A stretch of 64,000 bases of DNA from the NCBI GenBank assembly GCA_030062745.1, contig CP099841.1, positions 25,361,398-25,425,397 on the forward strand, written 5' to 3'. Numbering within the stretch: position 1 is the first letter of the stretch; every line of letters begins with the position of its first letter. The notes beneath the pieces are model-generated. The model worked only from the letters and a program-made list of their open reading frames with translations. It did not search any database and was not told the DNA's origin. Both the position numbers and the translations under genes were made by a program. Below, in pieces: positions 13,101-44,775 of this stretch. Origin of the DNA: Capitulum mitella. Lineage: Eukaryota; Arthropoda; Thecostraca; Pollicipedomorpha; Pollicipedidae.

Positions 13101-15602
13101 TCGGTCCAAATCCATCGAAACTGATCGTCCAGCTTCCCGTCCGCCTTTCCAAGCCATCGTCGCTCCATACTGCGCCGTTTGGGTCCCGGCAATTGGCCCA
13201 TAAGAAATACGAGTGTAAAAGAGGCGCATGCGCGCTGCACGTGACCCGTTGCACCCTGCCCCTCATCTTCATGGGGTACCGTTGGATAGTCCTGGTGCAT
13301 ATGTATCTGCCCACCAAATTTCAGCCGCCTAGGTCACTGTTGACGGCACTTGGAGGCCGCCGATATTAAATCGAAACACTTGCCTGTGGATCACCACGTG
13401 GATTGCACGTGGCTTGCACGTGGCTGTCGACCACAACAGCACACACCCGCATGTGGGGCCCATGCTGTGACCAAGCCTTAAGCCAACAGTACTCGTCATT
13501 TGACCTGTGCCCGTGATTAGCTGAATTCTGCATAGGTCCGGCTCGCGCCACGTGGCACGTGCCAGACGGCACGAATCGTTCCGAAACCAAGACCACAATC
13601 TGTCCGCCGAGTCGACGTTCCCGATGGCGCCATTTGTGTTGCGATCGGCGAACGCGTTCGGGCGCTAGAGGCTCCGAAGCTTGGACATACACACACATAC
13701 TGATAAACACCTCGATCTGAACGTTTCCTTTCGACCGTCATGTGTGAAATTTCAATTTGTTAAAAGCGTGCAAAGCACGTTCTTACCTCACCAGCTAGCA
13801 TGCTTTCATTTAACTGTCTTCATTTTTAAACATCCCGTAGGCCAGACGCTGACATAATTTTAGCCGTACAATAACTTTTCATTATTCCATAGTTGTACCG
13901 TGTCCTTCTCTGTTCCTATGCATGTTTATCACATTGCCACTGCCAGGCTGGGAGTAATCTGCAGTTGTTGCATTGCTGCTTGCAGTAAGTAGATTTTGTT
14001 CTTTGTGGTAAAGATCCATTTAAATATTTCATTGCTGAGGATTTTAGCGCAGTATTCGTATAAATTTGATGAAAAAGCAGAATGAAGTCTGCTTTTAATG
14101 CACTGGAAACGTGTCGCGTTTACTCAGCAAACAAAAATAATAGCTGCCATTTTCTGCCATTGTATGCAGGTTTTAACCGGAAATGGCAAGAAATAATTTC
14201 AGCCAGTTAAAATGTCAGCCCTGGTTTTAGCTGGGTCAAAAGGAACAGAAGTCCGCCGTCAAAAGAAACGGAGCTCATATGTTTGCGGCTTGTTAGTTGC
14301 GTTAAGAAGAGCGGTTCTGGCTGGCTTCCTTTGGACTTCCTTTCACTAGAGTAGAACGTCCTCTTTGGTGTCCCATTTGGCCTCCCTGAATTTCCTTGCT
14401 GGCGTCACTGTCCCTGTTGCTTCGGTATGGTGCGGAATGCCTTCTTCACTCTGCTACGACCGATCATGGAGCAGTCCCAGTGGACCGTCTTCACGGGAGT
14501 CGACCGCCGTGGCCGAGCGGGCGGCAGAGTCCGGCGCCGCTGACTCCCCTCCGCTGTCCTCAGACGAGCCACCGCGACGGACTGGCTTTGCCGTCGGCGA
14601 CCTGGTCTGGGGCAGCAACCAGGGCCTGGACTCCTGGCCCGGCCAGGTCATTCAGCGCTCCGACGTGCAGGTACGCCCTCCCCAGGCGCGACAGCCCTCA
14701 GGGGCGGTGGCCTGGCGTGGGGCGGAATTGTCCGTCCGACCGCCGTGTGTCCTTAAGTTGGAGTGATCACGTTGAGTCGTGGCGTCACGTTTAATGCTCA
14801 AGGCGTGCGGTAAATGGTGAACACGGTACATGTTAGGTCAGGACAGAGATTTATTGGAACTGCAACCCAGACGTGCTTGTTCTCGAACAAACTGCGAACT
14901 TTGTTGCGACGCGGACTTTCGCAGTTGTGACGGATTAAAAATGACTGGTCGTTGTTCCTGGCTCTGTGCAGTGCATTATCTTTTCAAGGTGTCTGGGGCT
15001 TAGTTCCGGGTTTATTGAGTTACGATAGTTTCCACAGCCGTGATGCATGTTGTGGAAAGAAACATCGCCTGGCAAGTGGCAACACCGCCTGAACCTGAGC
15101 CAGTGTTTATTTTCAGTTGAAATTCTCCAGTCTTACAGACTGACCGTGACGAGACGTTGCTGCTGTCAATTTGAAGGGCAGAAGGGGCCTGTTGTTGAGT
15201 TGTTGCCCTTAACGCCGGCCCCTCCGTTCCAGGTGTCTAGCCCGGACCACGTGTGGGTACGCTGGTTCGGCGACCACACCATGACGCAGCAGGCGGTCAG
15301 CCGACTGAGGAAGTTCCACACCCACAACACGACCAAACACAAAAAGTGAGTGAGCGAGCTTCACGCGCGCCGCTGAGCTTTGTTTGGTTCCATCAGGCCG
15401 CGCTTGACTGCGGAGCTCGTAAAGAAACGTGTTCAGAGCCGTCGCCCGTGCCGGGCGAGTGATAGTTCAACTTTGAGACGGTTTAAAGACTGCCAGGTAT
15501 TGATCTCGGTGGTGCTTTGTTCGCAGACCTCTCGCAGTGAACAGTAGTTTTGAAGAGGCTCTGCAGGAGGCGCTGACTGCAGTGAACAGACAGCTGAAGT
15601 AG
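1059..15602 (+). CDS. MBD5: MBD5/MBD6-like protein (six-banded type), 3' seven exons; 5' end outside window
   Basis: Joined exons are 1059-1182, 4100-4217, 9127-9200, 10279-12313, 14564-14670, 15233-15345 and 15527-15602. Splice phases agree at all six joins (0,1,0,1,0,2). The product has the second half of a methyl-CpG-binding-like domain (core [13 protein letters not shown]), a Cys/His/basic linker, a very long low-complexity middle, and a C-terminal PWWP domain (GDLVW, SWPG, VWVRWFG). This MBD-then-PWWP order is characteristic of MBD5. In known families the MBD of MBD5/6 contacts the BAP1/Calypso PR-DUB H2A deubiquitinase rather than methylated DNA, and the PWWP is a chromatin reader, so a nuclear chromatin role is inferred. 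The first exon here begins mid-MBD and no upstream MBD half is visible in 1-1058, so the gene starts before the window. MBD5 and MBD6 cannot be separated by eye; the PWWP favours MBD5. Confidence 0.88.
1183..4099 (+). other. MBD5/6 intron, GC-rich with simple repeats
   Basis: No exon homology on either strand. It holds a TG-rich microsatellite (about 1423-1451), a GGC run near 1650-1685, the 21-bp minisatellite listed separately, and a long G run near 3517-3530. Long ORFs here follow from stop-poor GC-rich sequence. Confidence 0.6.
2092..2313 (+). repeat. 21-bp minisatellite, about 10 copies
   Basis: Tandem units of 21 bp with core GAGCCCGGTGGACGTCCG. The first five copies are nearly identical and the last few decay, one with an insertion. 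Being a multiple of 3, it translates to repeating PSPVDVR or EPGGRPT, but no splice signals or homology suggest it is coding. Confidence 0.85.
4100..4217 (+). CDS. MBD5: MBD5/6 exon: post-MBD basic linker
   Basis: The acceptor GGCCAG ends at 4099, and AAAG|GTGAGC at 4217 is a strong donor. The phase 0 entry and phase 1 exit fit both neighbours. The encoded [11 protein letters not shown] segment corresponds to the conserved VTKLCIHKRK-type motif just after the MBD in vertebrate MBD5. The acceptor was chosen because it alone among three nearby AGs restores phase 0; its polypyrimidine tract is weak, so the exact 5' end is less sure than the 3' end. Confidence 0.72.
4218..9126 (+). other. MBD5/6 intron, very GC-rich
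   Basis: No exon recognised. GGCC/CCGG-dense blocks (4600-6200, 6960-7540) alternate with pyrimidine-rich sequence (6430-6760). Degenerate tandem repeats of about 80 bp lie at 7540-7860 (recurring GTGACCGTCTCTCTGTC-like lines). A second degenerate array sits at about 8780-9030 (recurring TGGAGCCTG...TCCAGG), immediately before the 9127 exon. Confidence 0.5.
9127..9200 (+). CDS. MBD5: MBD5/6 small exon ([14 protein letters not shown] motif)
   Basis: A 74-nt exon with acceptor TGCCCGCAG|AT and donor CTGCAG|GTGGGT. Phase 1 in and phase 0 out join cleanly to the exons at 4100 and 10279. It encodes [21 protein letters not shown], resembling the short ECKNPF-type segment following the linker in MBD5. 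It is the only non-low-complexity peptide in a 6-kb GC-rich stretch, which supports it being real. Confidence 0.78.
9201..10278 (+). other. MBD5/6 intron, GC-rich
   Basis: Dense GCCGGCC-type sequence without recognisable exons or repeats of defined unit. Confidence 0.5.
10279..12313 (+). CDS. MBD5: MBD5/6 giant internal exon: polyQ, polyP, Ala/Pro-rich region and NLS-like basic motifs
   Basis: A 2,035-nt exon (acceptor GTTTTCAG at 10278, donor CACG|GTAGGT). Codons near the start form a Gln-rich block of about 90 residues made of interrupted CAG/CAA (10282-10560). Next comes a conserved-looking island [19 protein letters not shown] (about 10816-10875), then a polyproline run (about 10951-11030), Ala/Pro-rich spacer, and a hydrophobic Gln/Leu/Pro segment (about 11500-11665). 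A basic motif [15 protein letters not shown] (about 11720-11765) parallels the vertebrate MBD5 RKRKQPPTTVLSLLR segment. A final TKRKRP cluster near the donor could be a nuclear localisation signal. The frame remains open 155 nt past the donor to a stop at 12468; phase matching to the PWWP exon shows that this tail is intronic unless the intron is retained. Confidence 0.88.
12314..14563 (+). other. MBD5/6 intron with CACGTG cluster
   Basis: No coding homology. It includes an isolated AATAAA (about 12841), the E-box cluster listed separately (12991-13561), and AT-rich sequence from about 13740 to 14300. Confidence 0.6.
12991..13561. promoter_or_regulatory. Cluster of eight CACGTG E-boxes
   Basis: Perfect CACGTG hexamers start at 12991, 13078, 13238, 13395, 13406, 13417, 13549 and 13556. 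Three are exactly 11 bp apart (one helical turn) and two are 7 bp apart. Such clustering is far above chance for a 6-mer. CACGTG is the target of bHLH factors (Myc/Max, USF, CLOCK/CYCLE families). An intronic enhancer is inferred, not shown. Confidence 0.45.
14564..14670 (+). CDS. MBD5: MBD5/6 exon: first half of PWWP domain
   Basis: The acceptor is CTGTCCTCAG|AC and the donor GTGCAG|GTACGC. Phase 1 in fits the giant exon and phase 0 out fits 15233. It encodes FAVGDLVWG followed by SWPGQVI, the beta-barrel opening of a PWWP domain with the signature motif as S-W-P-G, as in MBD5. Confidence 0.9.
15233..15345 (+). CDS. MBD5: MBD5/6 exon: second half of PWWP domain
   Basis: The acceptor is CGTTCCAG|GTG and the donor AAAAA|GTGAGT. 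It encodes [15 protein letters not shown], the aromatic-cage strand region of the PWWP fold, then a basic helix. Phase 2 exit matches the last exon. Confidence 0.9.
15527..15602 (+). CDS. MBD5: MBD5/6 terminal coding exon
   Basis: The acceptor is TTTGTTCGCAG at 15526. It encodes [20 protein letters not shown] and a short tail ending in Leu-Lys before TAG at 15600-15602. The amphipathic helix matches the LEAAIHEAMSELDK-type helix that follows the PWWP in MBD5. The vertebrate protein continues past this helix, so this product is shorter at the C terminus. Confidence 0.85.
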
Positions 15603-17247: not shown

Positions 17248-17462
17248 TCACTGATTCTCCCACGCTTCTTTCCACGCAGCCAGTTTCGGTTTCAGGTGTT
17301 CCTTGTACATCTGGTAACACACTCCTGCTGTCAGGCATGATACGACGAAACCCTGAGCGCCTACACGCATGTGGATCAGGTACACAGACGTCTTCATGTT
17401 CTTGGGCTTGGTCTTCAGGTTATAGAGGTTGTAGCCCACGATGCCAACCAAACCGGCTAGCC
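17248..17462 (-). CDS. HIGD1A: HIGD1 coding exon 2
   Basis: It carries most of transmembrane segment 1, the loop, the H-x-R-x3-Q motif and transmembrane segment 2, ending in TGA at 17248-17250. The acceptor on the - strand is TTATTTTTCTTGCAG. Confidence 0.92.
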
Positions 17463-17879
17463 CTGCAAGAAAAATAAGCCACACATGCTCAGCAAGATGC
17501 TCTAGCTGTCCTATAAGAAACTTACTCCTATGCCTTTTAGCCACCACACATGGTGTCTGAGACTTCAAAACACCCAAAGCAGAACTACATAGTGAAAACA
17601 TCACTTTGGGCCTGGAAGAGGCAAAATCAGCCAGTAGTGAATTGCATAGCACCTTCAATGGATGAACACTGGTGGGAGCTTAAAATGATGTGATGAATAC
17701 AGCCCAGACTCATTCAAACCAGAATGTTCACATTTCAAATGATTTGTTATTTGTATGGTGCATCCAGACCCACCTGCAACCATAAATGGTGATTCCCTCA
17801 TCTTCCTGACCAATTTTGATTCTTGGTGTGTTTCAGTGTCAAATGACTCATCAGGAATAGTTCTGCTTCTGTCCATCAT
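17248..17879 (-). CDS. HIGD1A: HIG1 domain family protein (HIGD1), 106 aa, two coding exons
   Basis: The coding exons are 17774-17879 and 17248-17462, joined in phase 1 (GCAG|GTGGGT donor, TTCTTGCAG acceptor). The 106-aa product has a short polar N terminus with SKLVRKMRESPF, then two membrane segments at about residues 31-51 and 65-88 separated by a basic loop (KTKPKNMK). This is the HIG_1_N fold. The family motif (I/Q)x3(R/H)xRx3Q is present as V62-H66-R68-Q72, with Val for the usual Ile/Gln. Family members sit in the mitochondrial inner membrane and modulate respiratory complexes III/IV under hypoxia. The C terminus extends beyond human HIGD1A with a charged, Trp-containing tail (AAWKEAWENQ). 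The gene is tail to tail with MBD5/6 and head to head with importin alpha. Confidence 0.92.
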
Positions 17880-22614: not shown

Positions 22615-22794
22615 ATGTCCGCCCACCGGCACCGCTACAAGAACGAGGGCCTGGACTCGGCCGAGCTGCGCCGCCGCCGCGAGGAGGAGGGCGTCCAGCT
22701 GCGCAAGGAGAAGCGCGACCGCCAGCTCAACAAGCGACGCAACGTGCCGCCGCTGGACGCCGGCGGTGACGAGCCGGCCGCGCCCGCCGTTCAG
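22615..22794 (+). CDS. KPNA6: Importin alpha exon 1: IBB domain
   Basis: Begins at ATG 22615. An acceptor-like CTGTCCCCCAG at 22573 suggests a 5' UTR intron. It encodes 60 residues with the two basic clusters RRRR (19-22) and KRR (40-42) that bind importin beta. Donor GTTCAG|GTGCGC, phase 0. Confidence 0.93.
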
Positions 22795-25700
22795 GTGCGC
22801 CCCGGCCGGCTGGGTTAGCGGCTCCAGGCTGGGTTAGCGGCTCCAGGCCTTGTCCGCAGCCCTCGGCTGTTTTCAGGGGATCGCGGGCTGAATTGTGTGG
22901 CAGCGTGAGCAAGGAGCGACGCCATCGATTTTGGGTGAAGAGTGCTAGCGAGCATGGGGCTGGGAAGGGTTGGGTGCTAAAGGCGACAGGCCTTGCGGGT
23001 CGTCGGGTCTCTTGACTAGTCGTGACCTCTCCTGCAGCTGGTGAACTTTGGGTGGGACGGCAGGCTGTCATCGATGCGTTTGATCTGCTGGTACGCTGCG
23101 TTTGCAGTAACCGGCACCGAACAGATTTTGCTGTCTCAGCCCAGCCACGTCGGCGTCTGCTCTGTGCTGTTTTTCTGAAGTCCCTGTGGCGCGGCTGACG
23201 CTCTGCTCACCGCGCCTGCGCTGACCGGCTCACCCGTGCTGGGCAGGAGGCACCCTGCATCACGCCGGAGATGGTGGACGCGCTGTACAGCGACGACCCT
23301 GAGCGGCAGCTGGAGGCCGCCCACCGGTGCCGCAAGTTGCTGAGCCGCGAGCCGAACCCGCCCATCGACGAGGTGATCCGGGCGGGCGTGGTGCCGCGCT
23401 TCGTCCAGCTGCTACAGGCCGACCATCAGCGGCTGCAGGTGAGGACTGTCGCCTGAAGACTGCCAGCGTCAGCAGGTGAGAACTGTCACCTGAGGACTGC
23501 CAGCATCTGCAGGTGAGGATGCTACAACGCCTGAGAACCACCGGCGGGTGCAGATGAGGACCGTCACTAGCGGACTGCCAGCATGTGCAAGTGAGGACCA
23601 CCATCTGATGATCACCACCTGCTGCAGGCTGATCATCAGCATCTGCAGGTGAGGACCGTCATCTGAGGACCATTGTCTGAGGACCAGCAGCAGCTGCATT
23701 TGATGACCATCACTTAAGGATCACCACCAGAGGACTGCTGACATCTGCATGTGAGGACCGCCTGCTGAGAACCACCAGCCTTTGTAGATGAGGACCATAT
23801 GCGGGTGAGGGACATCACCCTAGGACCACCGCGAGCAGACTGCAGGCGGGTGGAGGTGGGGACCGCCAGCATCTGCAGATGAGGAACGTCATTTTCTGCA
23901 AATGAGGACCTTCATTGGGTGCAGATGATGGCCATCACCTGAGGACCGTGAGTATCGCAAGGTGAAGGATACCAGTTACTGCACTGTTGCGTGCAAATAT
24001 AGAACAAGGGTTTGTATGTGAGAACCAGGAGAACCAGGTGTGTGAGCGACAGGAGCTTGCAGTAGCTGCAGCATTCGCATTTGCACTTGCTGGCGGATCT
24101 GTGATGTGCAATTCTGCCTTCCATTGCTGTTCATAGCGTCGTGCGTTCCCTGCAACTGACGCTGCACCTTTTACTGCACAGTTGAAGACTCATGGCTGTT
24201 TTATGACTGCAGGGGATGAAGTCGGGAGCCCGACTGTCCTGCGTTCAGTTCGAGGTGCCTAGCACGGAGACAGTCCTCCACACAGCCGGGGCCGTCTCGC
24301 CGGTCTGCCTGGCCGTTCTCGGCCGGCGCTGAGCCCGAGACGACGGCCTGACGCGCCGCCGCTCTGTCCCCAGTTCGAGGCGGCCTGGGCGCTGACGAAC
24401 GTGGCGTCCGGCTCGTCGCCGCAGACGCGCTGCGTGGTGGACGCCGGCGCCGTGCCGGTGCTGATCGGCCTGCTCGACTCGCCGCACGAGGAGGTGCGCG
24501 ACCAGGCCGTCTGGGCGCTAGGCAACGTCGCCGGCGACTCGCCGCAGTGCCGCGACTACGCGCTGGGGCAGGGACTGCTGGCGCCGCTGACCAGGTGAGC
24601 TGGCTGGCCGCCGGAGGAGCCGCCGCCGACACGACCTGGGCGGGGCCGCTGGGATCCACGCTTTAAGTGTGCTCGGAACGTGGCTTACGCACATGGTTTG
24701 GTAAATGTTCGGCGGCCTTTCGTCGACTGAGAGTCATCCTTCCTTGCTGATGCGTTTAGACAGACCTGAGCAACATGACCACAATGGGTTGGCAAACACG
24801 GTGTGTCAGCGCGTACCTGCGAAGAGAAAGTCTTTTAATTTTCTTGGAATGTCGAAATATTTACAAACCAAGTATCTTGTCGTTGTCATGAATTTGCATC
24901 GTAACAAGTGAAGACCCTGATTCAGTACAACCCACAAGCTCGCTGACGTCATCGTCTGACGAAGTTACCCTGCCGGACGTCGTCCTGCGTCCGCTGCGGT
25001 GCGCTCTCCCGGCTGTCGGCCGCTCCGTGATCGTCGTAACCCCGCCTTCCGGGCAGGATTCTCATGGGCCCCACGCTGCGGCTGTCGCTCAAGCGCAACG
25101 CCGTCTGGACGCTGAGCAACCTCTGCCGTGGCAAGAACCCACCGCCAGAGTTCGGCCGCGTGGCGCCGTGCCTGCCGCTGCTGGCCGGCCTGCTGGGCGA
25201 CAGCGACAGCGAGGTGCTGGCCGACGCCTGCTGGGCGCTGGGCTACCTGTCGGACGGGCCCAACAACAAGATCCAGGCGGTCATCGACGCCGGCGTGTGC
25301 CGCCGCCTGGTGGAGCTGCTGCTGTGAGTTGGGCGCCGGCGAGCCGTTGGGTTCTGTGTGTCGGGCGGTGGTGGCTCCGTGCTCCCCTGTGGCTGTGACT
25401 AGCAGCGGAGGTGAACGCTGTACTGTGACCAGCAAGGTGTGTGGTGTGAGGCAACTACCGTTGTTTGTCGCGCGGTCTCAGTGTACCATACAGAGTGGGC
25501 GATGTTCTTAGTCTCACAGTCAGTGAGCAGCAGGTGGGTAAGCGCCATTGCGGCCCCCGTGCACACTGAGCAGTGGGTGATGAGCGCTGTTTCTTTTCCC
25601 AGTCACAGTGATCAGCCTGTGGCGAATGTATTCTCTGTCACAGTTACAGTGAGCAGCGGGTGGTGAATGTTGTATCCTCTCCCAGGCACAGTGAGCACTG

Positions 25701-27983
25701 GGTGGTGAGTGTTCACCTCTCTCACAGTCGCAGTGAGCAGCGGGTGGTGAGTGTTGTATCATCTGTCACAGTCGCAGTGAGCAACGGGTGGTGAGCGCCG
25801 TTTCTCCTCTCACAGCCACAGTGAGCAGCGGGTGGTGAGCGCCGTTTCTCCTCTCACAGTCACAGTGAGCAGCGGGTGGTGAGCGCGGCGCTGCGGGCCG
25901 TCGGCAACATCGCCACCGGGGACGACACGCAGACTCAGGTGATCATCAACTGCCAGGCGCTGCCCTGCCTGCTCCTGCTGCTCAGCTCGCCCAAGGAGAA
26001 CATCAAGAAGGAGGCCTGCTGGACCATCAGCAACATCACGGCCGGCAACCAGGCCCAGATCCAGGTGACGATGTCGGCCGGGGACGAAACAGTTCTGTGC
26101 AGTCATCGAATGCTCGCCTCTAGAGTGAACTGCTCTGCCTTTGCCTGAAGTCCGTTTCCTGTTAGCCACAGGCAGTTTGCGAATTTGGTTCAGGGTGAAC
26201 ACATGATGTGGTCGGGCAGCACCAAACGTATTGGAACCCTTCGTTGCACTGTATGGATCCCCAGGTTAAGCTCTGGAATAATGGGGCGATTCGCGATCGG
26301 GAGCAAAGTTCCCCAAAGAACAGACAAAACGCCGTCCGGTTTAGCAGCGCTGACGAGCAGTGTCGCTGATGTCCGCACCTATCGCAGGCGGTAATAGACG
26401 CCCAGATATTCCCTGCGCTAGTCGAGATCGTCTGGACGTCTGAGTTCCGCACGCGCAAGGAGGCCGTCTGGGCCATCACCAACGCCACCACGGGCGGCAC
26501 GCCGGACCAGATCAAGTACCTGGTGGAGCAGGTGGGTGCCGGCCGGCGGGTGTCAGGCTCCGGCCGCTCACAGCCGCAGACGCGAGTACAGGCCTTCGGC
26601 AGGGGAGGCGACGGGCCCGGCAGGAGGTCGCGCCTGAACCGGCCATTGGGTAGTCGCCAGCAGCCGTTCTGTGGTATGGTGTTGGGAACTATTGGACGCG
26701 ATGATGCTGGGCCATTGTGTGAAACTTGAAGTGGTGATTTAAGTGCGGAAGAAACGGTCAGAGTTGACTGTTTCAGGGTAACAGTATAACGTTACAACAG
26801 CGTAACGTAGCATTGTATCGTGACAAGTTACGCACGTTACAGCGTGCGTGACTTGTTTCAGGGTAACAGTGCAATGTTATGTGAGTGCATGTCATTCAAA
26901 AAGGATGTTGGCATGAGTTAGTCATTTCGGCTGGTGTCGGAAATAACCATGAAATGCCTGCGACCCACGTAAAGACCTTGGCTCGTGAACTATTCGAACA
27001 TTTCAACACGAAACTGTAATGTGGCACCGTCCCAGCTTTATTTCTTTGACGTCTTGTGGGATTTTGTTGGTTTTCTTGTTTGGCGCTGCCTTCTATTTAT
27101 TTCGTGCGTGGTATTCATGGGGTTGACGTAGTAGTCACGCGCAATAAGAGGATTGTTATGGGCTAATAGCTGTTCTTTCGTTTCTGCAGCAATGCATCCA
27201 GTCGCTGTCCGAGATGCTGGGCCTGATGGACCCGAAGATCACCCAGGTGGCGCTGAACGGTCTGGAGAACATCCTGCGATTGGGCGAGACGGAGGCCAAA
27301 ATGACCGGACAAAATCAGTTCGCTGTCATCGTGGAGGAGTGTGGCGGTGGGTTTCGTGCGACCGAACGCAAAACGCAGATCTTAAAGGGCGGTCCCTGGA
27401 GGCGTGCGCTCTTGGTTGAAGGCGTGCGGCTCATCGGTCGCCGCTCATATTGCTTGAGTTTGCACGTCCGTAGACTACGATGTTGCCGTCGCATTGTTGT
27501 CCGCACCAAGGACGAACGTACCGCGTTTTACCTTCTGTGTTTATCTTCCTTACGCCCCCTTCTCTGCCAGATCATTTTACACTGCTGGTTGAGACCCCAT
27601 GCCGTGTGTGCCGTGTCATTCGCAGCTTGTGGTTCTCTCTGTTGTCCACTGCTGGTGGCCGTCGTCCTAGTCGGCTGTGTGTAATCTACTGATGGCCTCG
27701 TCCGCTGCGCTGTGCGCCACTGATGGCGCTCGTTCTCTGTATAGTGTCCTGCTGATGGCTCCCGTCCTTCGTGCCGAGCGCTCCTGACGGCCCGTTGTTC
27801 CTGCCAGGTCTGGACAAGATCGAGGCCCTGCAGACGAGCACCAACCAGGAGATCTACCAGAAGGCGTACGACCTGATCGACACGTACTTCGGCAGCGAGG
27901 AGGCGGCTGGCGTGGCCGCGCCCGAGGTCGACGCCGCCGGCGAGTACCGCATGGCGGCCGGCGACGAGCCCATCCGGTTCTAG
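22615..27983 (+). CDS. KPNA6: Importin subunit alpha, KPNA1/5/6 class, 513 aa, eight coding exons
   Basis: Exons 22615-22794, 23247-23438, 24374-24594, 25057-25323, 25860-26064, 26388-26531, 27190-27346 and 27808-27983 join in matching phases into one 513-aa protein. It has an importin-beta-binding domain (residues about 10-45, [24 protein letters not shown]) and armadillo repeats with the NLS-groove Trp/Asn pairs [28 protein letters not shown] and AVWAITN. It also has the family-typical [11 protein letters not shown] repeat where Tyr replaces Asn, and a C-terminal LDKIE...[12 protein letters not shown] segment. In the known cycle it binds NLS cargo and importin beta for nuclear import and is exported by CAS. 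GTPEQI/GTPDQI and SSPKEN motifs place it nearer KPNA1/5/6 than KPNA2 or KPNA3/4. No internal stops; it looks functional. Two introns contain minisatellites built from its own splice sites. Confidence 0.95.
23247..23438 (+). CDS. KPNA6: Importin alpha exon 2: IBB/ARM linker and first ARM repeat
   Basis: 64 codons, phase 0 at both ends (GGGCAG acceptor, CTGCAG|GTGAGG donor). It encodes [13 protein letters not shown] through [15 protein letters not shown], matching the first ARM helices. The donor is followed at once by a minisatellite made of copies of this donor. Confidence 0.93.
23425..23965 (+). repeat. Minisatellite of about 36-bp units seeded by the exon 2 donor site
   Basis: Degenerate tandem units each contain a version of CTGCAGGTGAGGAC, the exon 2 end plus donor. 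Intact decoy donors CAG|GTGAG recur at 23475, 23513 and 23649, with one-base variants at 23591, 23751 and 23805. One unit (23630-23650) repeats about 15 nt of exon (GATCATCAGCATCTGCAG, compare GACCATCAGCGGCTGCAG in the exon). Confidence 0.85.
24374..24594 (+). CDS. KPNA6: Importin alpha exon 3: ARM repeats 2-3
   Basis: Acceptor CTGTCCCCAG, donor GACCAG|GTGAGC, phase 0 in and 2 out. Contains [13 protein letters not shown] and [13 protein letters not shown], two Trp/Asn NLS-groove repeats. Confidence 0.94.
25057..25323 (+). CDS. KPNA6: Importin alpha exon 4: ARM repeats 4-5
   Basis: Acceptor TTCCGGGCAG, donor CTGCT|GTGAGT, phase 2 in and 2 out. Contains [20 protein letters not shown] and [13 protein letters not shown], both nearly identical to vertebrate KPNA1/5/6. 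Confidence 0.94.
25508..25902 (+). repeat. Minisatellite of 41-44-bp units seeded by the exon 5 acceptor site
   Basis: About eight to nine tandem units, each with a polypyrimidine tract, CACAG acceptor and a copy of the first about 30 nt of exon 5 (CACAGTGAGCAGCGGGTGG). Unit boundaries at equivalent AG positions fall at 25603, 25644, 25686, 25728, 25772, 25816 and 25860, i.e. periods 41, 42, 42, 44, 44, 44. The last unit is the real exon start. Confidence 0.9.
25860..26064 (+). CDS. KPNA6: Importin alpha exon 5: ARM repeats 6-7
   Basis: The acceptor is CTCCTCTCACAG at 25859, chosen over upstream repeat copies because it yields [19 protein letters not shown]. That has exactly the length of the vertebrate LLMHNDYKVVSPALRAVGN. 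It contains [13 protein letters not shown] and [15 protein letters not shown]. Donor ATCCAG|GTGACG, phase 0. Confidence 0.92.
26388..26531 (+). CDS. KPNA6: Importin alpha exon 6: ARM repeat 8
   Basis: 48 codons in phase 0. Acceptor CCTATCGCAG, donor GAGCAG|GTGGGT. Contains [14 protein letters not shown] and [20 protein letters not shown]. Confidence 0.94.
26533..27189 (+). other. Importin alpha intron 6
   Basis: No coding signal. A short imperfect repeat GTTTCAGGGTAACAGT occurs near 26771 and 26867. Confidence 0.5.
27190..27346 (+). CDS. KPNA6: Importin alpha exon 7: ARM repeat 9
   Basis: Acceptor TCGTTTCTGCAG, donor GGCG|GTGGGT, phase 1 out. Contains [20 protein letters not shown], a hallmark of the family. 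Confidence 0.93.
27808..27983 (+). CDS. KPNA6: Importin alpha exon 8: ARM repeat 10 and C terminus
   Basis: Acceptor TTCCTGCCAG; stop TAG 27981-27983. It encodes GLDKIEALQ and [17 protein letters not shown], then a short divergent acidic tail ending DEPIRF. The tail is shorter than in vertebrates. Confidence 0.93.
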
Positions 27984-30900
27984 CGGCCGGACAGGCCTGC
28001 TCGTCGCGGAGCTCCTGGCGGCGAGCGGCGGCCGCGGCCGGCGCGCCGCGCGCCGCGCGGAAGCTTTCGCCAGACGGCGCCCGAATGGGTGTCCGCTGGC
28101 GGCGGACTGCAGCTGGGTGCTTGGCGCCATTCGACGGACAGGCGACAGCGGGGCTAACAGCCTCGCCGCCACGCGGCGGCGGGGGACGCTTTCTCACGCG
28201 CGACGGCCGACCGGCGGCCGCGACCGGACGACGTCGGCGGGCGAACCGAGTGCCAGGCCGCCGCTCAGGGTAGACGCCGGCTGGGCCGGGCGGCTGCCGC
28301 GGGCGCGGCGCCCACCGCCGGCCCGGCGCGGCGTTTGTGTGGCGTTGGCCGGGTGGCGGCGGATTTTGGCCCTCGCCCGGCTCGGTCTTCACAGCTGCGC
28401 CGGATTTTCTCGCACCGGATGGCGTCGCCATGAAATCGGGCTGGCAGTGTCGGGCACTGCCGGGGCCGGCCGTGGTGTGACGTCACGGTCATGTCGGCGG
28501 GCGGTGTGACGTCACGGCCATCTGAGGCGGGTGATGTGCCGGCACGGCCGTCTGACGGCGGCGATGTGACGTCGTGGCGAACTGACTGAGGGCGTTGTGG
28601 TGCCTCCGATAGCTGGGAGACGGCCGCGGGTCGGACAACAGAGACAGACCGGTGAACTCGTGCGCGACAGGGACTGCGAGGACTTCGACTGCGGGACGAT
28701 GTGTCCACCTCCTCCAAACGGACTGTGATACACGATGTTGCACGCTTCGACGCAATCGCGTGGGGTGGAGACAGTCTCATGCGTGTTGGCCGACGATTTT
28801 CATTTATTGACACCAAAGGGTTACAGGAAGCTCAGTTGGATTATATGTCTGGTGCTGAGACAGACTACGATACGAAAGGAAGAAGGCAAGCAAGAGTGAA
28901 ATAGGGAAACGCATTTGTCCCATTGTGTATCTACCGTTGCGACGCGGGTTTGCGTCTGAGGATTTTTGGACGGGCAGTGATGGCGTTCTGGAGAGTGTGG
29001 ACCGTCGGCCGATGGCATCTGGACGTCCTCCGCGTGTGCATTTTCGACGTGCACAAAGATCTGCACCGTGCACTGACTGTGAGGCCACTCCCGCGTGTGA
29101 AGTGTGTGCGGAGACAGACATTGGACTTGGGCTCCATCCCGACTTCCCGGCCAGTGTTTTGACTGTGACTCCGCCCAGCCCTCACTGACCGCTTGTTAAC
29201 CTCTGCATATTTTATTGACCGTTTCGGAGTCCGCTGTCGATCTTGTACGACCTTTACTGACGCGCATTTGACGTGAATAATACAAGACTTGCCAGGTGTG
29301 ACCAGTTTTTCCGGGAGGAGAGGTTGCCACCACAAACGTCAACGGCGAAATGTTGGGTCAGGACTCAGAGCTTGACCTTTGATGGGGGAGTCTAGCGAGC
29401 TGGTTTTATGTTGATAAGGGATTTCATTCAGGGATGAACTGTCCAAAATAGTCCCTTTCTGTAGTGGTTGGCTCAAGCCTTGGCGGAGAGGTCTACGATT
29501 TGGCCGCTTCTAGGGCAGGAAACAGTCCTGTATTGCGTCAGGGCGAGGGTTACTCCTCTTTCCTTGGCTGCCTCAGTCATCTTGGCTGATACGCGTGCTT
29601 TCTGTGGCGCCATCAGTGTCGTGATGGCCGGTTAGAAGAGATCGATAGACGTATTTCGCCCATCGTGGACTAGAATAAAGTATGTCAGTAAACGTGAGGG
29701 AGTTAGGTGGTGCTGTTTCTGGCAGTGGAAAACGGAAAACAATACGAATATGGAAAGAGCAGACAGGTACTGAAGTGTTCCCTCATCAAGGCGTGTGACT
29801 GATTTCTTGCTTTTTCGAGCATTTGCCAAATTCCAAACGCTTTTGAGATACGTTGTGATTTCAGTTAACTAGCTCCCAGCGACCTTTTATTTTCTTTTTC
29901 TTTTTGTGCCAGGGACGATGTGTCGGCACGCGATAGGGCGGTACATCAATTCAACAACGGAGGCACGCCTTCGGGTCTGACGTAGGTGTCGCCGCCTGGC
30001 GGGTGAAGTGTAAAGTAAAGTTTCCGTCGCCTCCGCCAGGGTATTTCGATGGCCGCGCTGCGCCATATCGCAGTTAGGGGAAACACCGGTCGCCGCGCTG
30101 GTTGCCATGCGGCGCGGCGGCAGCTGATTCGTTCGCAGCGCGCCGGTGGCGGCTTGTGGTTCTCGCGCCGGCGGGACCGGGGGGGGGGCGGGAGGCGGCG
30201 CTCCGCTCACAGGGAGCAACGCAGCTGCACGTCGAAGTACCATATGTTGGACTGTCTTCGCATTCTGATGGCATTGCGGTGGCAAAAAATTAATTCAGAT
30301 TACAACCAAGAACACAGTTCCATGCAATGGGCCTCCAATTGCGCGCATTCGTTGAATTTTGATGGTCTGTATCATACTAAACCTGCCTTTCAATTGGTTT
30401 TGGCAATCATGGCGAAAATTCCTTCGATAGTTACGAATAATTGCGTTGCCGTTAGCCCACTGCTCAAATTTAGGGCAAACAATGTTTTTCACTTTCGTGA
30501 AGGCCAGTTTAAAGTTTCCATGTTGTGAAATTCACCGGTTTATCATATTTTTGTTTGTTCTCTCAAGGCGTGATTAAATATTTGCCGGTCAGATCGTTAT
30601 TTTGGCATTTCAGGAGCAGTGTTATATAACACACGTGAAGTCTAGGGACTACGGAACAACGCCGCAGTTGAACGTCACGTTGTTTTTGTCATGAGGTTTC
30701 TGGGAATGAAAACCAAAATTTTGGGTGGACATGCAGCCCATTTCATATGGAGCAAGATGCAAAACGGGCTGAAAAGTGGCTGCAACATCTGCAAAGTCAG
30801 CCCACTATCTCTAAATGATGACGAGGATCGGGTTCGTCTGTCCGCTCTGCTCCGTCTTTACATTCTGTCGCCTGTCTCCGTGTGTTTGTCGGGAATATGG

Positions 30901-31490
30901 TCTTCCCGACATTTCGGGCACCAGTTACGTGACACTGACTACCACGAAGCAGACATCCAAACCAGGATGGCATCACGCGGCCCAAATCGTTCTGGGCGTC
31001 TGGCGCTGGGAGCGAAACTCAACAGCGCGTCCGTTTTCAATTACGCCCGACTGGTGATCTGCCCCCTAGCTCCGCTGTGGACGGGAAGACCCTCCGCTGA
31101 CCCCTACCTGCGGCGCTCGCGACTACCTGTCTGCCGGCCGTCCCGCGCCCCTCACCCGGCCGCTCCCCCGCTGTCACGGTCCCTTCATCCCTCATATCGC
31201 CGGCTGCATCTACGCATTACACCGCGGTCCGACAGCCCCTTCTGTTGGTTCGTGGAGTCGCCGCCAGGGGCGCTGAACGGACGGGCGGCGAACGTGACGC
31301 GACCGTCAGCGGCGGCGGCGTGTGCGGTGCCGCCGCCATCACAGACAGTGGGCGCTGTTAACCGCGTGGCGCATGAGCAGCCAAAGAGTTTAGGCGACGC
31401 CAAGAAGATAGGAACGTCTTTTGCGGAATTCACCAACGCGCCTAGTGACGTTACATGAAAAGAAGCGCCCTTAAAAAAGGCCCTTTGCCT
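27984..31490. other. Intergenic region 3' of importin alpha
   Basis: No gene recognised. 28478-28570 holds a short tandem repeat with two perfect CRE sites TGACGTCA (28478 and 28507) and a third degenerate one near 28564. A long G run is at about 30180. ORFs here lack homology or splice support. Confidence 0.4.
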
Positions 31491-31502
31491 GACTACCTTT
31501 GG

Positions 31503-31690
31503 TCCTCATTAGCTCAGTCGACAAAGACACGGGCTCGTGATTGTAAGGCTGTGGGTTCGAGTTTCGACGCCACTAGCTCTCGATCAGTGACACACGTGGT
31601 GTGGATTGAACACCGGACGTCTGAGCCCAAGCGGCTCTGCGCCCTAACTCAAACCAACCAACCGGTATTGCCTTTGTTGGAGGAGACGCA
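31503..31690 (+). repeat. tRNA-derived SINE fragment
   Basis: An A box (TTAGCTCAGTCG) and a B box (GGGTTCGAGTTTC) at tRNA spacing, with an anticodon-loop-like GATTGTAAGGC between (TGT, Thr-type). The acceptor and T stems do not pair, so it is a SINE head rather than a tRNA gene. The body, of uncertain end, includes CTAACTCAAACCAACCAACC. Confidence 0.5.
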
Positions 31691-33129
31691 GTTCGGCTGA
31701 AAACTTGACCCGCGTCCAACATTCGGCACTCGCTTGTATGTTCTCTGCTACCCTGGCTGAGAGCGTTTACTATGGCGTTTTTTGTACGTTGGCCAATGGC
31801 CAAAAGTACGCCATTTGTGATTCTAGCAGTAGTCAGTCGTATTCGATCGTTGATCTGCAACCAAGTGAGATAGAGAGACGAAAATGGGCTTGCTTCTAGT
31901 TCCTCCGAGATTTAGAGCGCCCGATCCTAAACGTCTGTTATACCCTGTTATAGTGTGTTTCGGCTGACATTTCAGATCAGATCAAACGGGAGCATAGAAG
32001 AACCTATAGAGGAATCACTATTTCCATGGAACATCTGGGTGCTGTCAACATAGAATTAAATGAACCACTTACATTGCGCTTGTGGCTTTTCACCTTCTTT
32101 CAGACTTTCTCGCTGCTTGGTTTTTTATGGGTCGACACATTTGCCGAAATTTGGAATGGGAAAATGAATGCGCAAGTGCATGGACACATTCCATGGAGTT
32201 TTGTGACGTTTAAGGAGTTTTATGCGGACTACTTATTTATAAGGACTACTTAAAACGGACATGCTAATGACGTCTGTTCGTACCATTTGACGTAGGTTGA
32301 CCTGTGTCGTCATTTCCCTCATACAGGTGCGTATTGACAAGGGTAGCTCCCAACACTATGGACGAATTACGATGACGACTTCTCGAGAGTGCTTTCTCAT
32401 TCATGGAAACATGGTCTTGAGCCTATGGCCCATACAAAAGCACTTCTGAAAGGTTCACGGAATCATTTGCGGACCGCTGTGGTACTGACGTCCCATAAAT
32501 ACATTTTCACGTATTCGGTTTTAATATGTCCGTAATCTCGATTTGTACGCCAAAAAACGGCAAGCCCTAAACCGGTCAAATTTTGATATTTTACATTGCC
32601 CGCGATCTAGATACTTTGGCGAGTTCCAAAAATATGGCACGACCGGAGTCACATCATCGAGTGCCATCGATTGAAGCTCGATTCCATGGAATCAGTTCAT
32701 TTATTGCGGAATTATCGGGTGGGAATTGAGTTTCACGCCCACAAACCAGAAAGTGCAAAATGGTGAAATAGTTCAGTAACTGCCGTGTTCAGTCATGGGT
32801 GGTAACGTAAAATTTATGTATGAAAAATTTGCATAGAATTATTCGAATGATACGTCAGTCATTTACGTTTTTTTGCAATTAATTTGCCCGGGGCAATCAT
32901 ATGAACGTCTCACATGCGAAGTTTTTTGCATAAACCGAAAGGATAGTGGTGTTTGCCGTAAGGTAACTGTGCCAAATGGCAGCCGTGAATATATTTGGTA
33001 TCCATTAGAGATGATGCGGCTGACAGATGACATGTGAGAGCTCTGGACAATGTGGTTGTCACTGAACCAATTTGGGAAACAGAGGTGACGTTTTATGTGT
33101 ATTTTCCGGTCGTCTTTGAGCCCCACTGT
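31691..33129. other. Intergenic, nothing recognised
   Basis: AT-rich sequence with no homology-bearing ORF and no clear repeats. Confidence 0.4.
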
Positions 33130-34514
33130 TGCTGGATATAGTATGGAAAAATATGGTGTGGAGAAATATCGAATGGAAAATATCGAAAGCAAAGTACCAA
33201 ATGAGGTAAACATTCGCCGAGATGAGTAGCGTAAGGAAAAATGTCGTACAGCATGTTTAGTAAATATTATATATATATATATACAGCATGGGAGAATGTG
33301 GAACGGAAAAAATATTGGAAGGAAAATATCAGATGAGATCAATGTTAAAGGGAAAATGCCATAAGACAAAAATTATGGAATAGGCATAATCATCGCAGTG
33401 GGAAATATCGCGACTCGGAACATGAAACGGAAAAATGCAGATCTCGAAAGACATCACCAAAATATGGAACCAGAAAAGAATGTCATCGTAAATATGGAAA
33501 GGGCAAATATATAATCTCCTGATTTCGCAAAAGGATCCTCGAGTGTCGTATTGGAACGGTTATCAAAATGACCAAATTTTGCACCACAAAATGTTGAATG
33601 GTAGATTAATACCAGCTTGATACCTTGAAAAGCTTTTGAAGCTTTCGCCCTTAATGGTACGAACAAAGGACAAGTCTCGTCGTTTAACGTATTGTGTTCC
33701 TTTTTCCGGTGGTCCCTTGAGGCTTCATGGCTCCCACCGTTGTTGGCAGATACTGTCAAGAGCGCAGGACGTGATGACGGTATGGTCCATGGATATTGTC
33801 TCCGATACCAGCGAGGGAAACTTTCCTGACGTCTTACGTTGTTGGCGGTTGAAAGAGCCCTGACATCAGCAACCAGAATTGTCCCCAAAAGACTGCCGAA
33901 GAAGAGTGAAAGTTTTGACACCAGGGATTCAGACTCTTCATACCGCAGCAAAGAATCCCTAGCATGTTGATCGTCCTATACTCAGGTCCAGTAGAGTAAT
34001 TTGTATTTCTCCGGGCATCAATTTGCTGTCTGAAACATTATGTGAGACCCGAAATGTTCATGAACAAGCGAAATATTCATATCCATTTTTTCCTATAAAT
34101 AGAAGAAAGATTTTTTGTGGAGATTTTGTCTAAGTTCTAAAAAAGCTTCGCAACGCTCAACGCAACCCAGGAAAATGTCCATAAAGAGCCAGTGTTTACC
34201 GTGTCTACCATGTTCCGCCAGCGTTTGTCACGCTGCATTTGCCGTTACGGCGATTCTTGGTGCGTTATTACATATTTCACGACATTTTGTTATATGATAT
34301 TTTCCCACTCATATACAGTGTTCCGTCTATATCTGTCTTGCTCGATGTTTCGTGTTCGATGTTTTGTTTTGGATTTCTTGCTGTTTGGCATGTTTCTAAT
34401 CAATACTTGCTGCCATTTCGATGTTTACTCTGTATCCATATTTTTCCCTGATCGACGTTTTGCCGTTCCATTTCCCTTTCCGATATCCCCCCATATCGTC
34501 ATTGTTTGCCCATA

Positions 34515-34554
<40 letters not shown>

Positions 34555-34560
34555 TACAGA
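33130..34560. mobile_element. Foldback-like element: inverted arms of degenerate AT-rich minisatellite
   Basis: The left arm (about 33130-33510) is a degenerate tandem array around GGAAAAATATGG / GGAAATATCG. The right arm (about 34190-34520) has the reverse-complement motifs (CCATATTTTTCCC, CGATGTTTCG). Each arm contains an AT microsatellite (33262-33284 and 34518-34550). The arms flank about 680 bp of unrelated sequence. Long inverted repeats made of short tandem repeats define foldback (FB) transposons; assignment is by architecture only. Confidence 0.4.
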
Positions 34561-37338
34561 TATGTTTTCGATCTTCCGTATAGTTTTCCTTGTTACTGGG
34601 TCGTGCTCGCTTAAGATGGTTCCAAAGTTCATAAAATAAATCATCGGTTCATTAGATCGCATCGCACAAAACACACGCAATCAATCTTAATGGACGGCTC
34701 TTATCAAGCATCACAAAGCAACAGCTGCAACACATCACTTAATACTAGCCAACACCTGCCAGAATGTAGGGATTTTGAGGTGCGAAGACGACCGATCAAG
34801 GCCCTCTGCCAGTAAACGGAAGTTCCGCTCTTTGAGCACCCTCATGGGTAACCAGTTCCCAGACCTACTACACCTGCTTTTAAAGTATCCCACTGGCACA
34901 CACCTAGAAGGAGATCTCTAGCACAGCACCAACACTACAAGAAAAAAGTAGTTTCTCCCTTATCCACCATAAACGCAACCAGTGACCTCATGGGAACTTG
35001 GCCAGGATCGCGCATTGTCTTTATTGGTCAATTTGTCCCGGGCTCCGCCCTTGCGCTCAGAGGCAGCCGTGGGGACCGCTCGACCTACCAGCTCAAGCCG
35101 TCAATAGGCAGTCCCGACCAAACACCAACAACAACTGCACTACATAACCACAACACCCTAAGTCCTTCCCCTTCTTCTCTTCTTCCGCAACACCCGGCGT
35201 GATAGCGTGAACGCTTAGCCAGCGTGAGAGGCGGTGTGGGCAATCTCCTCCTAGCCTGCACGATAAAGACCCCTAATCGTTCCTCGTAAGGAGTAGGCCT
35301 CGTGCCGGCACCTTGGCAAAATCCAGCTCAAATCGTAATGTACATTTTTTCCAGAGGGATAAAAGTAACGACATTCTCATAAGCAGAGGCTACGACTCCC
35401 TTCCTCTTCTTCCTGCACGTCTTGCCTCCACTTCACGGTGGCCCCACACTAAGCTGATGTTCTAAGCGGCTTGTAAATTAAGTCTGTACACATACAGACT
35501 AAGTACTTGTACTCACCACTCTTTCCCGCTGTAACGTTAAATGGAACACTTGTGCCATGTTGAAAATCGCCACGTACACCCGAACGCAACGTAACTCACA
35601 CAGACTTTACAGGCGGCGCATGATGACCAGTTGGTCGTGGCAAGCCTTGAAACTCAATGTCAGTCAGTCATAACAAAAAAGGCGAAAATTAGCACATATT
35701 AAATATTTTCAACGTTTCTGCTTGTATGAGAACATTTTCGTGAATATGGTGAGAGAGTTCAACCACCCGTTAGAAGAAAACATCGATCAAACATAGGCTT
35801 AAATGATTCAGATCTTCACACTTTTGTCCCGCGAGAAGCTAAATTCTTCGTCCCAGCGGAGCACCGTCAAAAAGTTTCAGGGTGCCCCAGGCATTGACTT
35901 GTCTGTTGATGGTCAAGCCCAAGTCACGTATGTAGATGGGTTCTAGTATTTGGAATCGTTACTTGTTGCTGCCAGTTGCGACAACTTGTAGATTACTAAT
36001 CAAGTGTTATCTAGTTTGTGTCTCTTGGTGGAACTGCATGGTGAATGTATACGGCGGCCTTTCTGTAAGTGCATGGTCACTCGTCTGTTAAAGGTTGTCG
36101 TGGTGTATCCAACGTAGCCACCATTTTCAAGGAGTGCGCAGTCTCCTTTTTAACCCACCTCCCCTGAGGTTTTTTTAGGATTGTGAGAGAACGAACAAAC
36201 ACAGAGTCACGGAACTTCGTGTACCTTTTGCTTGATCATTTTTACACCCTGTGTCAAAGTTTTGACCTCAGGTCAGATCATGTGCCTGACCTAGGTCAGG
36301 TCAAACGGACCTATGTCCAAAATAGTTTAGCTCCCTGCAACTTTTCCGGAAAACGCGATATCACAATAAAACGTTCAGGGGTTTGTAATCTTGATAGATG
36401 CAACAAATCTGCTATCTCAGATTTTTAGGAATTCTTCGGGTCATTGACCATAGGTCAAGACCATTTTTAAGACGTGCCATTTTTTCGGAAATTGACGAAA
36501 TATTTCATAACATTTTTAGTGTGGAGTGAAGCAGACATCTAGCTACCGTCACTGGGAAAAGTATCAATGACTTTTAGCCATTGACCTGAGGTCAGGTCAC
36601 GAATAACTGTTGTGAACCAAAACGAACCACCGTCAAAATCAGCGATGAATTACTCAGAATGGATAGAAAATGGTAAAACTGGCTTGCACAGACGTAAGTA
36701 ATACCAGGAACCTCAAAAGTTTCAAAACGTTGCATATTTTGGAAATAAACAGGCTCTCACGAATGAGGCTCCGCCAATTGTGGAGATCGGAAGCTAATGA
36801 ATTTTTCCAAAATTTAATCGTGAAAAACCATCACAAGAACCACTAAGATCAATAAAATTTACATGGATAGGCTTTTTTCGCGAAAATAAAAGAACGCTAA
36901 AATTAGTTCCCGTTAGTTTTTTTGCTGCATACGGCTGTGGCGCACGCCGACAGCCGGCGCGAAAATTGCCGTCTCTTTATCTCAACGTTTCGGCGTCCAT
37001 ATTGAACAAATCCGAGAAATTAGATGTGTATCGGCATTTGCGGACCTTTACTTGTGCGCTGGTGCGTTTACCAATGCGTTATTGGTCACAGTCCTTGAGA
37101 TTCAGGCCGTTTCTCGGTCTCATGCAGTCGGCTATGAGAAAACATATATAGGATGTAAATTGCTTACATATTATCTAAAACTAAGAATGAGACCAGTTTC
37201 GAGCTCTACTTGTCACAAGATTTCCAACGGTGTGTTTATTTTTATCGTGCAACCAACCGTTCGTGAGTTAGAGGGGGCGGCCGACTGCCTCGCCCCCCCC
37301 CCCCTCCAGTCGGGCGTGATCGTCGCCGACCGACGGTC
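34561..37338. other. Intergenic, with palindromic TGACC/GGTCA repeats
   Basis: No gene seen. 36262-36599 carries four TGACC-spacer-GGTCA palindromes. A C run occurs near 37293. Confidence 0.4.
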
Positions 37339-38005
37339 GTGCGCGGGTTAACATCTGTAGAAGAAGATGACATTGGACTGTTTCAGCTTAGCTGGATCTT
37401 TGGGCATGTTGTTTCTCAGGATAATGGAGGCTACCGTGGGTTCTTGTTGTAAATGATAAGTTTTAGTCCATCTTCTGGGTTTTCTGTCTTGATGTTTCGG
37501 TTTATGATGTCTAGAAGCACCTTCTCGTCCACCTTGTGTCTGGAAGACATGGTATTCTTGTAGGAGAGCTTGTGGGTAGTTGTAGCATGATCTGTAGGTG
37601 CACTTTGGTGGTTGTGACACTCGGCCTTATTGATGACATTGGCGATGAGTTGCATTAGGTCGTTCTTGTTGACAAGTACCTGTGTGACTCTGCATAGTTC
37701 TTGATGCAGGCGAATCCACGAGGAGCAATGGCTTAGAGCTCTTATACGTTTAGTATACGTAGGCTTTGATCACGCTCGTCTTGTGGCGGGTAGGACACTC
37801 GCTGTCCCGTTCAGACATCTTCCAACGTCAGTAGCTTTTCGGTATACGCCGATGACAATGAGACTGTCTGAGCTGTCAGTCGTCACCTATAGGGAGCTGA
37901 TTTTATTCGCTCGACTTTCTTCGGTGGTGAAGCTCAGTTGGACTCACCTTGGAGTTTGGTTTCCACCAAGTTCAAGCTAACCAGATCCATGACGTCTACG
38001 AGGAT
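37339..38005 (-). mobile_element. Penelope-like retroelement fragment (end of RT and linker region)
   Basis: On the - strand, frames broken by indels read VYRKATDVGRCLNGT (compare the Penelope VYRKPT-D-GRCLNG motif), then a Cys-Ser-Ser-Trp / HQELCRVTQVLVNKN block, then SSRHKVDEKVLLDIINRN, KLIIYNKN, ILRNNMPKDPAKLKQSNVIF and YRC. This is the order from the reverse transcriptase C-terminal region to the entrance of the GIY-YIG endonuclease in Penelope-like elements. It stops dead at the Tyr-Arg-Cys where the GIY-YIG domain should begin. Frameshifts show it is a dead copy. Confidence 0.7.
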
Positions 38006-39164
38006 GTCATCTAGGGGAGATTTGGGTAACATCGGACGACAGGTAATTTCGGATACCCTTATTTCTTCGCCACGATTAGACTTACGTCCAAAATATCTTT
38101 TTTTAATTGGCAGGAATCCAATGGTCCTTTTGCCGCGTTGCGCAGAGGAGTTGCACGTCTTAAATGGATATTTTTTAATTCGCTGTTTCTGTTTATAAGA
38201 TTTCCGGTTTTCTGTCGCCTGTCATTGAAGAATTCACAAGTAGAAATGTGCGCAGTTATCATATTACATTTCATTCGTGCATTTCCTTGATCTTAGAATT
38301 GGCTGCAAATGGCCGAAACCGTTTGCCTCGCCATCATGCCGCACCTTTTAAGGCACCGCCGTCCTGGTAATAATGGACACCGTCTGATAATATCCGAATA
38401 CCCAAAACTGGTGTTTTAATACGCGCAGCAAAGCAATTTTTATTAAAACCATTTTCTGTAAGAAACGCGCGGTAGCACGTAAGAACTGGCCAGCTGGCAG
38501 AAGTATAACAACAAATCGACCAGGCAACTTCCGGTGCCCGACGGAAGCAAAAGCAACCGTGACGCGGCAGGTCGACGGCAATAGCAAAAACGGCGGGAGG
38601 TTGACATGGGGGTAGATACCTAGCTTGTGATTGGCCTAAGAGACTTCAGCTTAGCCTCAGCAGGCACCGCTTGTATCAGACATGGATGGGCCAAATTTGG
38701 ACGGCCGTCTGAAATTACCGTACGGTGTCCGGAATTACTCAGAGTCAAAATTTATTTTTTAATAATGATTGCAGTTAAAAAGTCTCACAGCAGCCGTTCA
38801 GGCGATCGTTTTTTTAGATTTGAAGGTCTTTCACATGAATGTCCTTCGGTTGACTTGCGCCTATCTGGGAATTAACTGCAACCGATTCCAGATAGGCGTC
38901 CGGTATTACCCGATTCTCCGCTATATACCTGCAGGACAGGAAAGGCCTTACTGCTTCATATTGCAGAACTCTTTGTTGCACTAAGGCTATGAACGCTTGA
39001 GCAAAAACACGCCGAGAGGAGAGTCCATGGCCTATACCATCAGCCTAATCATACATGTTCACGATTTTTCATTAATGTATGATCACGCTTGCCCAATGTT
39101 AGATTTACCGCTTTTGCTACCACAATGCCAGATCCCATAAGCATTCGTTTACATGATGATATGC
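38006..39164. other. Intergenic, nothing recognised
   Basis: No homology-bearing ORF. Upstream remains of the Penelope-like element may extend here but are not readable. Confidence 0.35.
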
Positions 39165-41334: not shown

Positions 41335-41339
41335 TAACT

Positions 41340-42900: not shown

Positions 42901-42946
<46 letters not shown>

Positions 42947-44770: not shown

Positions 44771-44775
44771 CGATC

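Follow-up and report, generated by a model that had tools for sequence, protein, structure and literature searches.

Splice-junction copies in two introns of an importin-alpha gene and their likeness to the boundary-spanning minisatellites of lancelets

Boundary-spanning repeats in other genes and at the importin-alpha locus

Minisatellites that cover exon-intron boundaries have been described in lancelets under the name of 'mirages', in the genes Adh3, BflGb6 and BflGb9 (globins) and troponin C, and similar repeats were noticed in PGBD5 (PMC3087553, PMC3902484). These arrays are found at 5' as well as 3' boundaries, and the splice dinucleotide AG or GT is retained in many of their units, not in all (PMC3087553, PMC3902484). 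For the lancelet arrays, reverse transcription-polymerase chain reaction (RT-PCR) suggests that splicing is undisturbed, and variation in array length is reported (PMC3087553). Here, a gene for importin alpha is described from a stretch of 64,000 nucleotides (nt) of contig CP099841.1, called the window below, whose own numbering is used throughout. Intron 4 of this gene ends in a ladder of copies of the acceptor and start of exon 5, and intron 2 begins with more degenerate copies of the end and donor of exon 2. The array in intron 4 is probably a minisatellite of the 'mirage' kind, which arose when sequence spanning the junction of intron 4 with exon 5 was duplicated in tandem, and which is tolerated because the exon-proximal site is the one used.

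Related situations are known outside lancelets. In human IFI6 (6-16), two downstream repeat units of a minisatellite serve as donors in real transcripts (PMC4526556, citing Turri 1995). Human segmental duplications contain internal tandem repeats with a mean unit of 30 bp at exon-intron boundaries, which are said to form novel introns (PMC2812944). The potato RdRp gene gained an intron when a segment spanning an intron-exon boundary became duplicated (PMC4974935), and novel introns of Drosophila were attributed to tandem duplication and to duplicated proto-splice sites (PMC2891723).

The importin-alpha gene (22615..27983, + strand), delimited by its coding exons from the gene model and the PDB match, is complete. 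Its eight coding exons (22615-22794, 23247-23438, 24374-24594, 25057-25323, 25860-26064, 26388-26531, 27190-27346 and 27808-27983, all on the + strand) are joined across GT-AG introns into an open frame of 513 amino acids. The product matches PDB chains of importin alpha-7 (E 8.9e-190) and importin alpha-5 (E 1.8e-187), which we take to be the human proteins, in alignments that cover query residues 64-499 with a few gaps of one or two residues. Exons 1 and 5 were the importin exons scanned with Pfam, and they gave an IBB domain and an armadillo repeat (Arm), respectively; an IBB domain and armadillo repeats thus lie within a single open frame, as is proper to an importin alpha of the alpha-5/-7 type. 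The join between exons 4 and 5 aligns gapless with LLM-HNDYKVAS/VVS when exon 5 begins at 25860, which supports this position as the real beginning of coding exon 5 (25860..26064, + strand). The intron that precedes it, intron 4 (25324..25859, + strand), is 536 nt long and has the donor CT/GTGAGT. A second AG lies 6 nt beyond the first, forming a tandem acceptor 25860/25866; use of 25866 would remove His-Ser and keep the frame.

The acceptor ladder (25520..25859, + strand) comprises eight units of 41-44 nt within the intron. In every unit, a copy of the 27 nt that open exon 5 precedes an intron tail. The units start at 25520, 25562, 25603, 25644, 25686, 25728, 25772 and 25816, and the ninth start is the real boundary at 25860, so that the spacings are, in order, 42, 41, 41, 42, 42, 44, 44 and 44 nt; the first 27 nt of the exon (25860-25886) form the ninth copy. 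Tandem Repeats Finder (TRF) describes the same region as a 44-nt period repeated 7.5 times at 25562-25883. The exon-derived heads of the intronic units are identical to the exon 5 start at 20-26 of their 27 nt, and the last repeat is almost exact, since 25784-25842 and 25828-25886 agree at 57 of 59 nt. When the exon 5 start was searched for within intron 4, the best local score was 52, whereas none of 1000 dinucleotide shuffles exceeded 30; chance is thereby excluded as the origin of the ladder. The first-pass annotation had proposed about eight units of 41-44 bp, built from an acceptor and an exon start, with the genuine exon as last copy; the units in register, the shuffles and the gene model all agree with this, there being eight intronic copies plus the real one. 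The array had been extended to 25902 in that annotation; its presence is confirmed, and the repeat ends at 25886 since the exonic copy is 27 nt long.

The splice signals of the units are kept to various degrees. An AG in register is present in seven of the eight, the unit at 25562 being without it; it belongs to CACAG at 25520, 25644, 25728, 25772 and 25816 and to CCCAG at 25603 and 25686. In the AG-keeping units, 10-14 of 16 positions of the polypyrimidine tract are pyrimidines, a range in which five of the six other acceptors of the gene also fall. The additional AG found 6 nt downstream of the real exon start recurs in six of the eight units; the unit at 25520 has a further AG 4 nt downstream, and that at 25562 has none that near. 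Moreover, a donor-like GTG/GTGARY is found at +19 in five of the eight units (four GTGAGY and one GTGAAT) as well as in exon 5 itself. Upstream of the first clear unit, 25506..25519 (+ strand) resembles an acceptor tail and ends with CTCACAG. Possible older, degenerate units, such as TGACTAGCAGCGGAGGTGAACGCTGT, were recognised by eye only at 25391..25505 (+ strand), and the trace of the repeat may extend upstream to about 25391.

A second array, absent from the first-pass annotation, follows exon 2. This donor ladder (23427..23942, + strand) consists of degenerate repeats of the end of coding exon 2 and its GTGAGG donor. The repeated boundary reads CAGCGGCTGCAG/GTGAGG and its degenerate recurrences reach about 23942, with 12 downstream registers of which six keep the GT. 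The longest donor-side copy (23615..23670, + strand) contains the donor along with 34 nt that match the exon end; over its 56 nt it shares 82% identity with 23405-23460. In a test of the 14 importin boundaries, the exon 2 end scored 35 against a maximum of 28 in 1000 shuffles. The 12 boundaries other than the exon 2 donor and the exon 5 acceptor gave no significant copies with 1000 shuffles each (for the lowest of them, 140 shuffles equalled or exceeded the score). Likewise, none of eight boundaries of the neighbouring MBD/PWWP-like, HIG1 and forkhead genes, whose exon edges were placed by eye, had significant copies with 300 shuffles each (lowest, 74). Further boundary arrays in addition to these two were thus rejected for want of a shuffle signal. 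Intron 1 has a repeat of its own just past the exon 1 donor, at 22808-22848, where a perfect 19-nt repeat without exon sequence is present in 2.2 copies.

The two ladders are like the lancelet mirages in anatomy, in their occurrence on acceptor and donor sides and in the partial retention of AG and GT (PMC3087553, PMC3902484). In both, the unit spans an exon-intron boundary, the authentic boundary is the end copy on the exon side and the extra copies are intronic; many units, not all, keep the splice dinucleotide (AG in 7/8, GT in 6/12), and a 5' boundary (exon 2 donor) and a 3' boundary (exon 5 acceptor) are duplicated within one gene. Unit size is 41-44 bp in the acceptor ladder, whereas it is 10-72 bp in lancelet Adh3 and about 150-160 bp in lancelet globin (PMC3087553, PMC3902484). 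In IFI6, as here, the units of a minisatellite carry splice sites, but there they act as donors, those of the importin gene being mainly acceptors whose use would give premature stops (PMC4526556). Splice signals were also copied by duplication in potato and Drosophila, and the potato duplication crosses an intron/exon junction like the one described here (PMC4974935, PMC2891723). However, the potato study did detect a new intron and the human boundary repeats belong to recent primate paralogs with transcripts, whereas the nine-copy importin array is seen at the level of DNA (PMC4974935, PMC2812944).

The importin ladders hence look like a further example of the known boundary-spanning minisatellites rather than a new kind of switch. 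The publications matched by a search for mirage-type repeats that are not on lancelets concern a plant protease gene and chiffchaffs, as judged by the listing of a search that leaves most subscription journals uncovered. The GC content of the window is 54.7% (mean of 32 sub-windows, averaged by hand), that of lancelets being about 41%. This value and the protostome-like start of the FOXO-like gene hint that the host is perhaps no lancelet. Should it lie outside the lancelets, the present case would carry such boundary-spanning minisatellites into another animal lineage.

Origin of the arrays

The head of exon 5 codes for residues that can be aligned with those of known importins, which identifies the exon as the source of the repeated sequence; the intron copies are derived from it. 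New units would arise mainly beside the exon, whose copy could act as a master held by coding constraint while its intron tail drifts. Such a process would explain both a greater likeness of units near the real boundary and a less variable exon-derived part. Both features are found in the acceptor ladder. In a hand alignment of the eight intronic units, identity rises toward the exon for the heads (rho 0.72, one-sided permutation p 0.024) and for the tails (rho 0.65, one-sided permutation p 0.042). Furthermore, the mean pairwise identity among the eight intronic copies is 0.77 for the exon-derived part and 0.55 for the intron-derived tail that contains the splice signals. This gradient and the uniformity of the exon-derived part fit duplication at the exon edge with a constrained exonic master. 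The near identity of the last two copies is compatible with length instability, as far as one haplotype can indicate. The donor array after exon 2 may have been formed by the same process at an older date.

Several points weigh against this history. The gradient depends on only eight units, and the faster change of the tail could stem from slippage or transitions in the pyrimidine tract. The donor ladder has no clear gradient: its copies are identical at 22-33 of 40 positions, and the highest value is that of the fifth copy (23649). In addition, the common copy of the donor array reads CAGCATCTGCAG, unlike the exon 2 end itself, CAGCGGCTGCAG. For these two reasons a simple model with an exonic master fits the donor array less well. 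When arrays are placed at random in such a way that they touch no more than 40 coding nt, 12-24% of them, depending on their length, straddle a boundary by 10-40 nt; both high-scoring arrays of the importin introns do straddle one, a mild hint that junctions may be favoured. Finally, the branch-site match of the real acceptor is poorer than that of several intronic copies (see below).

It should be kept in mind that the window is rich in minisatellites. The 15 TRF rows with a score of at least 100 (merged by hand, two of them overlapping) cover 5.5% of it, and from this coverage about 0.8 of the 14 importin boundaries would be expected to be hit, against the two observed (Poisson p ~0.18). In such a window, two boundaries hit need no special cause. 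That junctions are favoured sites for arrays is possible.

Acceptor choice and competing explanations

With duplication at the exon edge as its origin, the array would survive because every extra copy lands in intronic sequence and splicing normally uses the acceptor nearest to the exon; mis-splicing to the upstream copies would lead to premature stops, presumably a minor loss. Protein homology, together with the published RT-PCR on similar lancelet arrays, suggests that the most 3' site wins. The alternative sites at 25816, 25772 and 25728 lie 44, 88 and 132 nt upstream of the real one, so the statements of the first-pass annotation on their reading frames hold: the first two shift the frame and the third keeps phase and runs into a stop, which is located after residue 308. 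All of 16 tried acceptors between 25482 and 25822 (of 46 upstream AGs listed) lead to a stop 182-538 nt before the exon 5/6 junction. The donor side is similar: intron 2 has 23 GTs within its first 540 nt, and 22 of them give a premature stop; the remaining one, 9 nt on, stays open.

The choice between 25816 and 25860 amounts to a natural competition experiment, since these two acceptors, 44 nt apart, agree throughout the 31 nt that precede them and again between +2 and +27. Their single difference is at +1, and the choice would therefore have to rest on context. The cue used by the cell would thus have to be sought almost entirely beyond the splice site itself, for example in the exon beyond +27 or in the proximity to the exon 5 donor. 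A special RNA structure that would hold the acceptors was also considered and rejected, the predicted folds being ordinary (z -0.44, -0.42, 0.87, -1.03 and 1.38).

The branch site could matter as well. With a simple self-written yUnAy score, the best match for 25860 is GTGAG (4/6), whereas the six other acceptors of the gene reach 5-6/6 and the decoys at 25520, 25603, 25644 and 25686 reach 5/6 each. The best candidates of the real acceptor fall in copies of exon codons. Given the weakness of these candidates, some leakage toward the upstream sites is plausible.

Arrays on an acceptor side and on a donor side of a single gene could plausibly represent an early stage in the growth or gain of introns. 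The ladder might be an intermediate of intron gain or exon gain, in which pairs of units would be proto-introns, five of the units having an acceptor and a donor-like GTG/GTGARY separated by 19 nt of exon copy. There are five such acceptor/donor pairs with 19-nt exon copies, their donors being GTGAGT, GTGAGC or GTGAAT. Precedents exist in the model put forward for lancelet globin (PMC3087553) and in potato RdRp, where boundary duplication created an intron that took its donor from the exonic copy (PMC4974935). However, any of the five 19-nt pseudo-exons, when included singly, causes a stop after residue 295, and an intron between neighbouring units would measure about 25 nt. This is too short for an intron, and an intermediate of this type is an unlikely explanation of the ladder.

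A broader combination of these ideas has to be regarded as quite unlikely when all of its parts are taken together. Splice junctions would seed minisatellites in this lineage and introns would grow outward from exon edges by junction duplication, so that exons would face ladders of near-identical competing sites. The array itself would supply the branch site of exon 5 (GTGAG, a copy of exon codons), its pyrimidine tract and its AG. The number of units would then determine, to a measurable degree, how often transcripts of an essential import receptor are spliced unproductively, and would vary between individuals.

The regulatory part of this combination can be weighed alone. The first-pass annotation had left a choice between tolerance of the array and a tuning of expression by unproductive splicing; tolerance turns out to be the better supported of the two. 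As an expression dial, the array would have its upstream acceptors used at a set rate, the products would undergo nonsense-mediated decay and the number of units would tune the level of importin alpha. The seven AGs do follow more or less pyrimidine-rich tracts, and 25816 reproduces the real site at positions -31 to -1 and +2 to +27. The weak branch-site match at 25860 could make the choice leaky, and every upstream AG examined in intron 4 (44/44) gives a premature stop, located more than 50 nt before the last junction. But premature stops are near-universal at the gene's other acceptors too: among upstream AGs within 380 nt, they were found for 102 of 105 at the six other acceptors and for 38 of 38 here. 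The 105 control AGs comprise 93 with a stop more than 50 nt before the last junction, nine with a later stop (all before exon 8), one with a frameshift without stop and two that stay open. Stops are thus no commoner here than in the ordinary introns of the gene, and as a sign of regulation they were rejected, which leaves the dial without positive support. Furthermore, the units resemble one another less in the stretch with the splice signals than in the one copied from the exon, the AG was lost in one unit and RNA folding is not unusual (z -1.03 to +1.38). By their titles, none of the 12 publications listed of 234 matches joins importin alpha or KPNA1 with a poison exon or unproductive splicing. 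It is therefore highly improbable that the array is such a dial.

Misassembly into an artefactual stack is hardly credible; near-identical adjacent units are indeed hard to assemble, but the units differ at many positions and in length where a stacked repeat should be more uniform, and the surrounding gene is intact.

Neighbouring genes and other repeats

Besides the importin-alpha gene, the window contains parts of several other putative genes. An exon of a HIG1-domain (hypoxia-induced) protein is found at 17251-17679 on the - strand (E 6.1e-13). A coding exon of a forkhead gene lies at 48265-48948 on the + strand; it is FOXO-like by eye, includes a proline run and gives a partial match to the forkhead domain (E 7.3e-11). 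The segments 1059-1182, 10300-12313, 14564-14670 and 15233-15340, all on the + strand, possibly belong to a single MBD5/6-like gene. This candidate has an MBD-like exon, recognised by eye, and a large glutamine-rich frame, neither of them with a Pfam match, as well as a weak partial PWWP match (E 0.0095) that is below the cut-off. Pfam gave no match in two of the six frames of 1-15001 and 30001-45001, and Rfam gave none in the window.

Two sets of inverted repeats were also noticed among the 25 matches listed of 157. The minisatellite blocks at 41341-41822 and 44207-44765, with a period of about 15/30 nt, are mutually inverted; their arms, up to 190 nt long and 81% complementary, are about 2.6 kb apart, and an inner inverted pair (41857-41924/44105-44172) lies between the blocks. 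The whole looks like a foldback-type element. A second set, at 39260-39703 and 39919-40652, is likewise inverted, internally repeated and foldback-like, with pairs such as 39355-39446/40533-40624 (77%) and 39620-39703/39995-40078 (83%).
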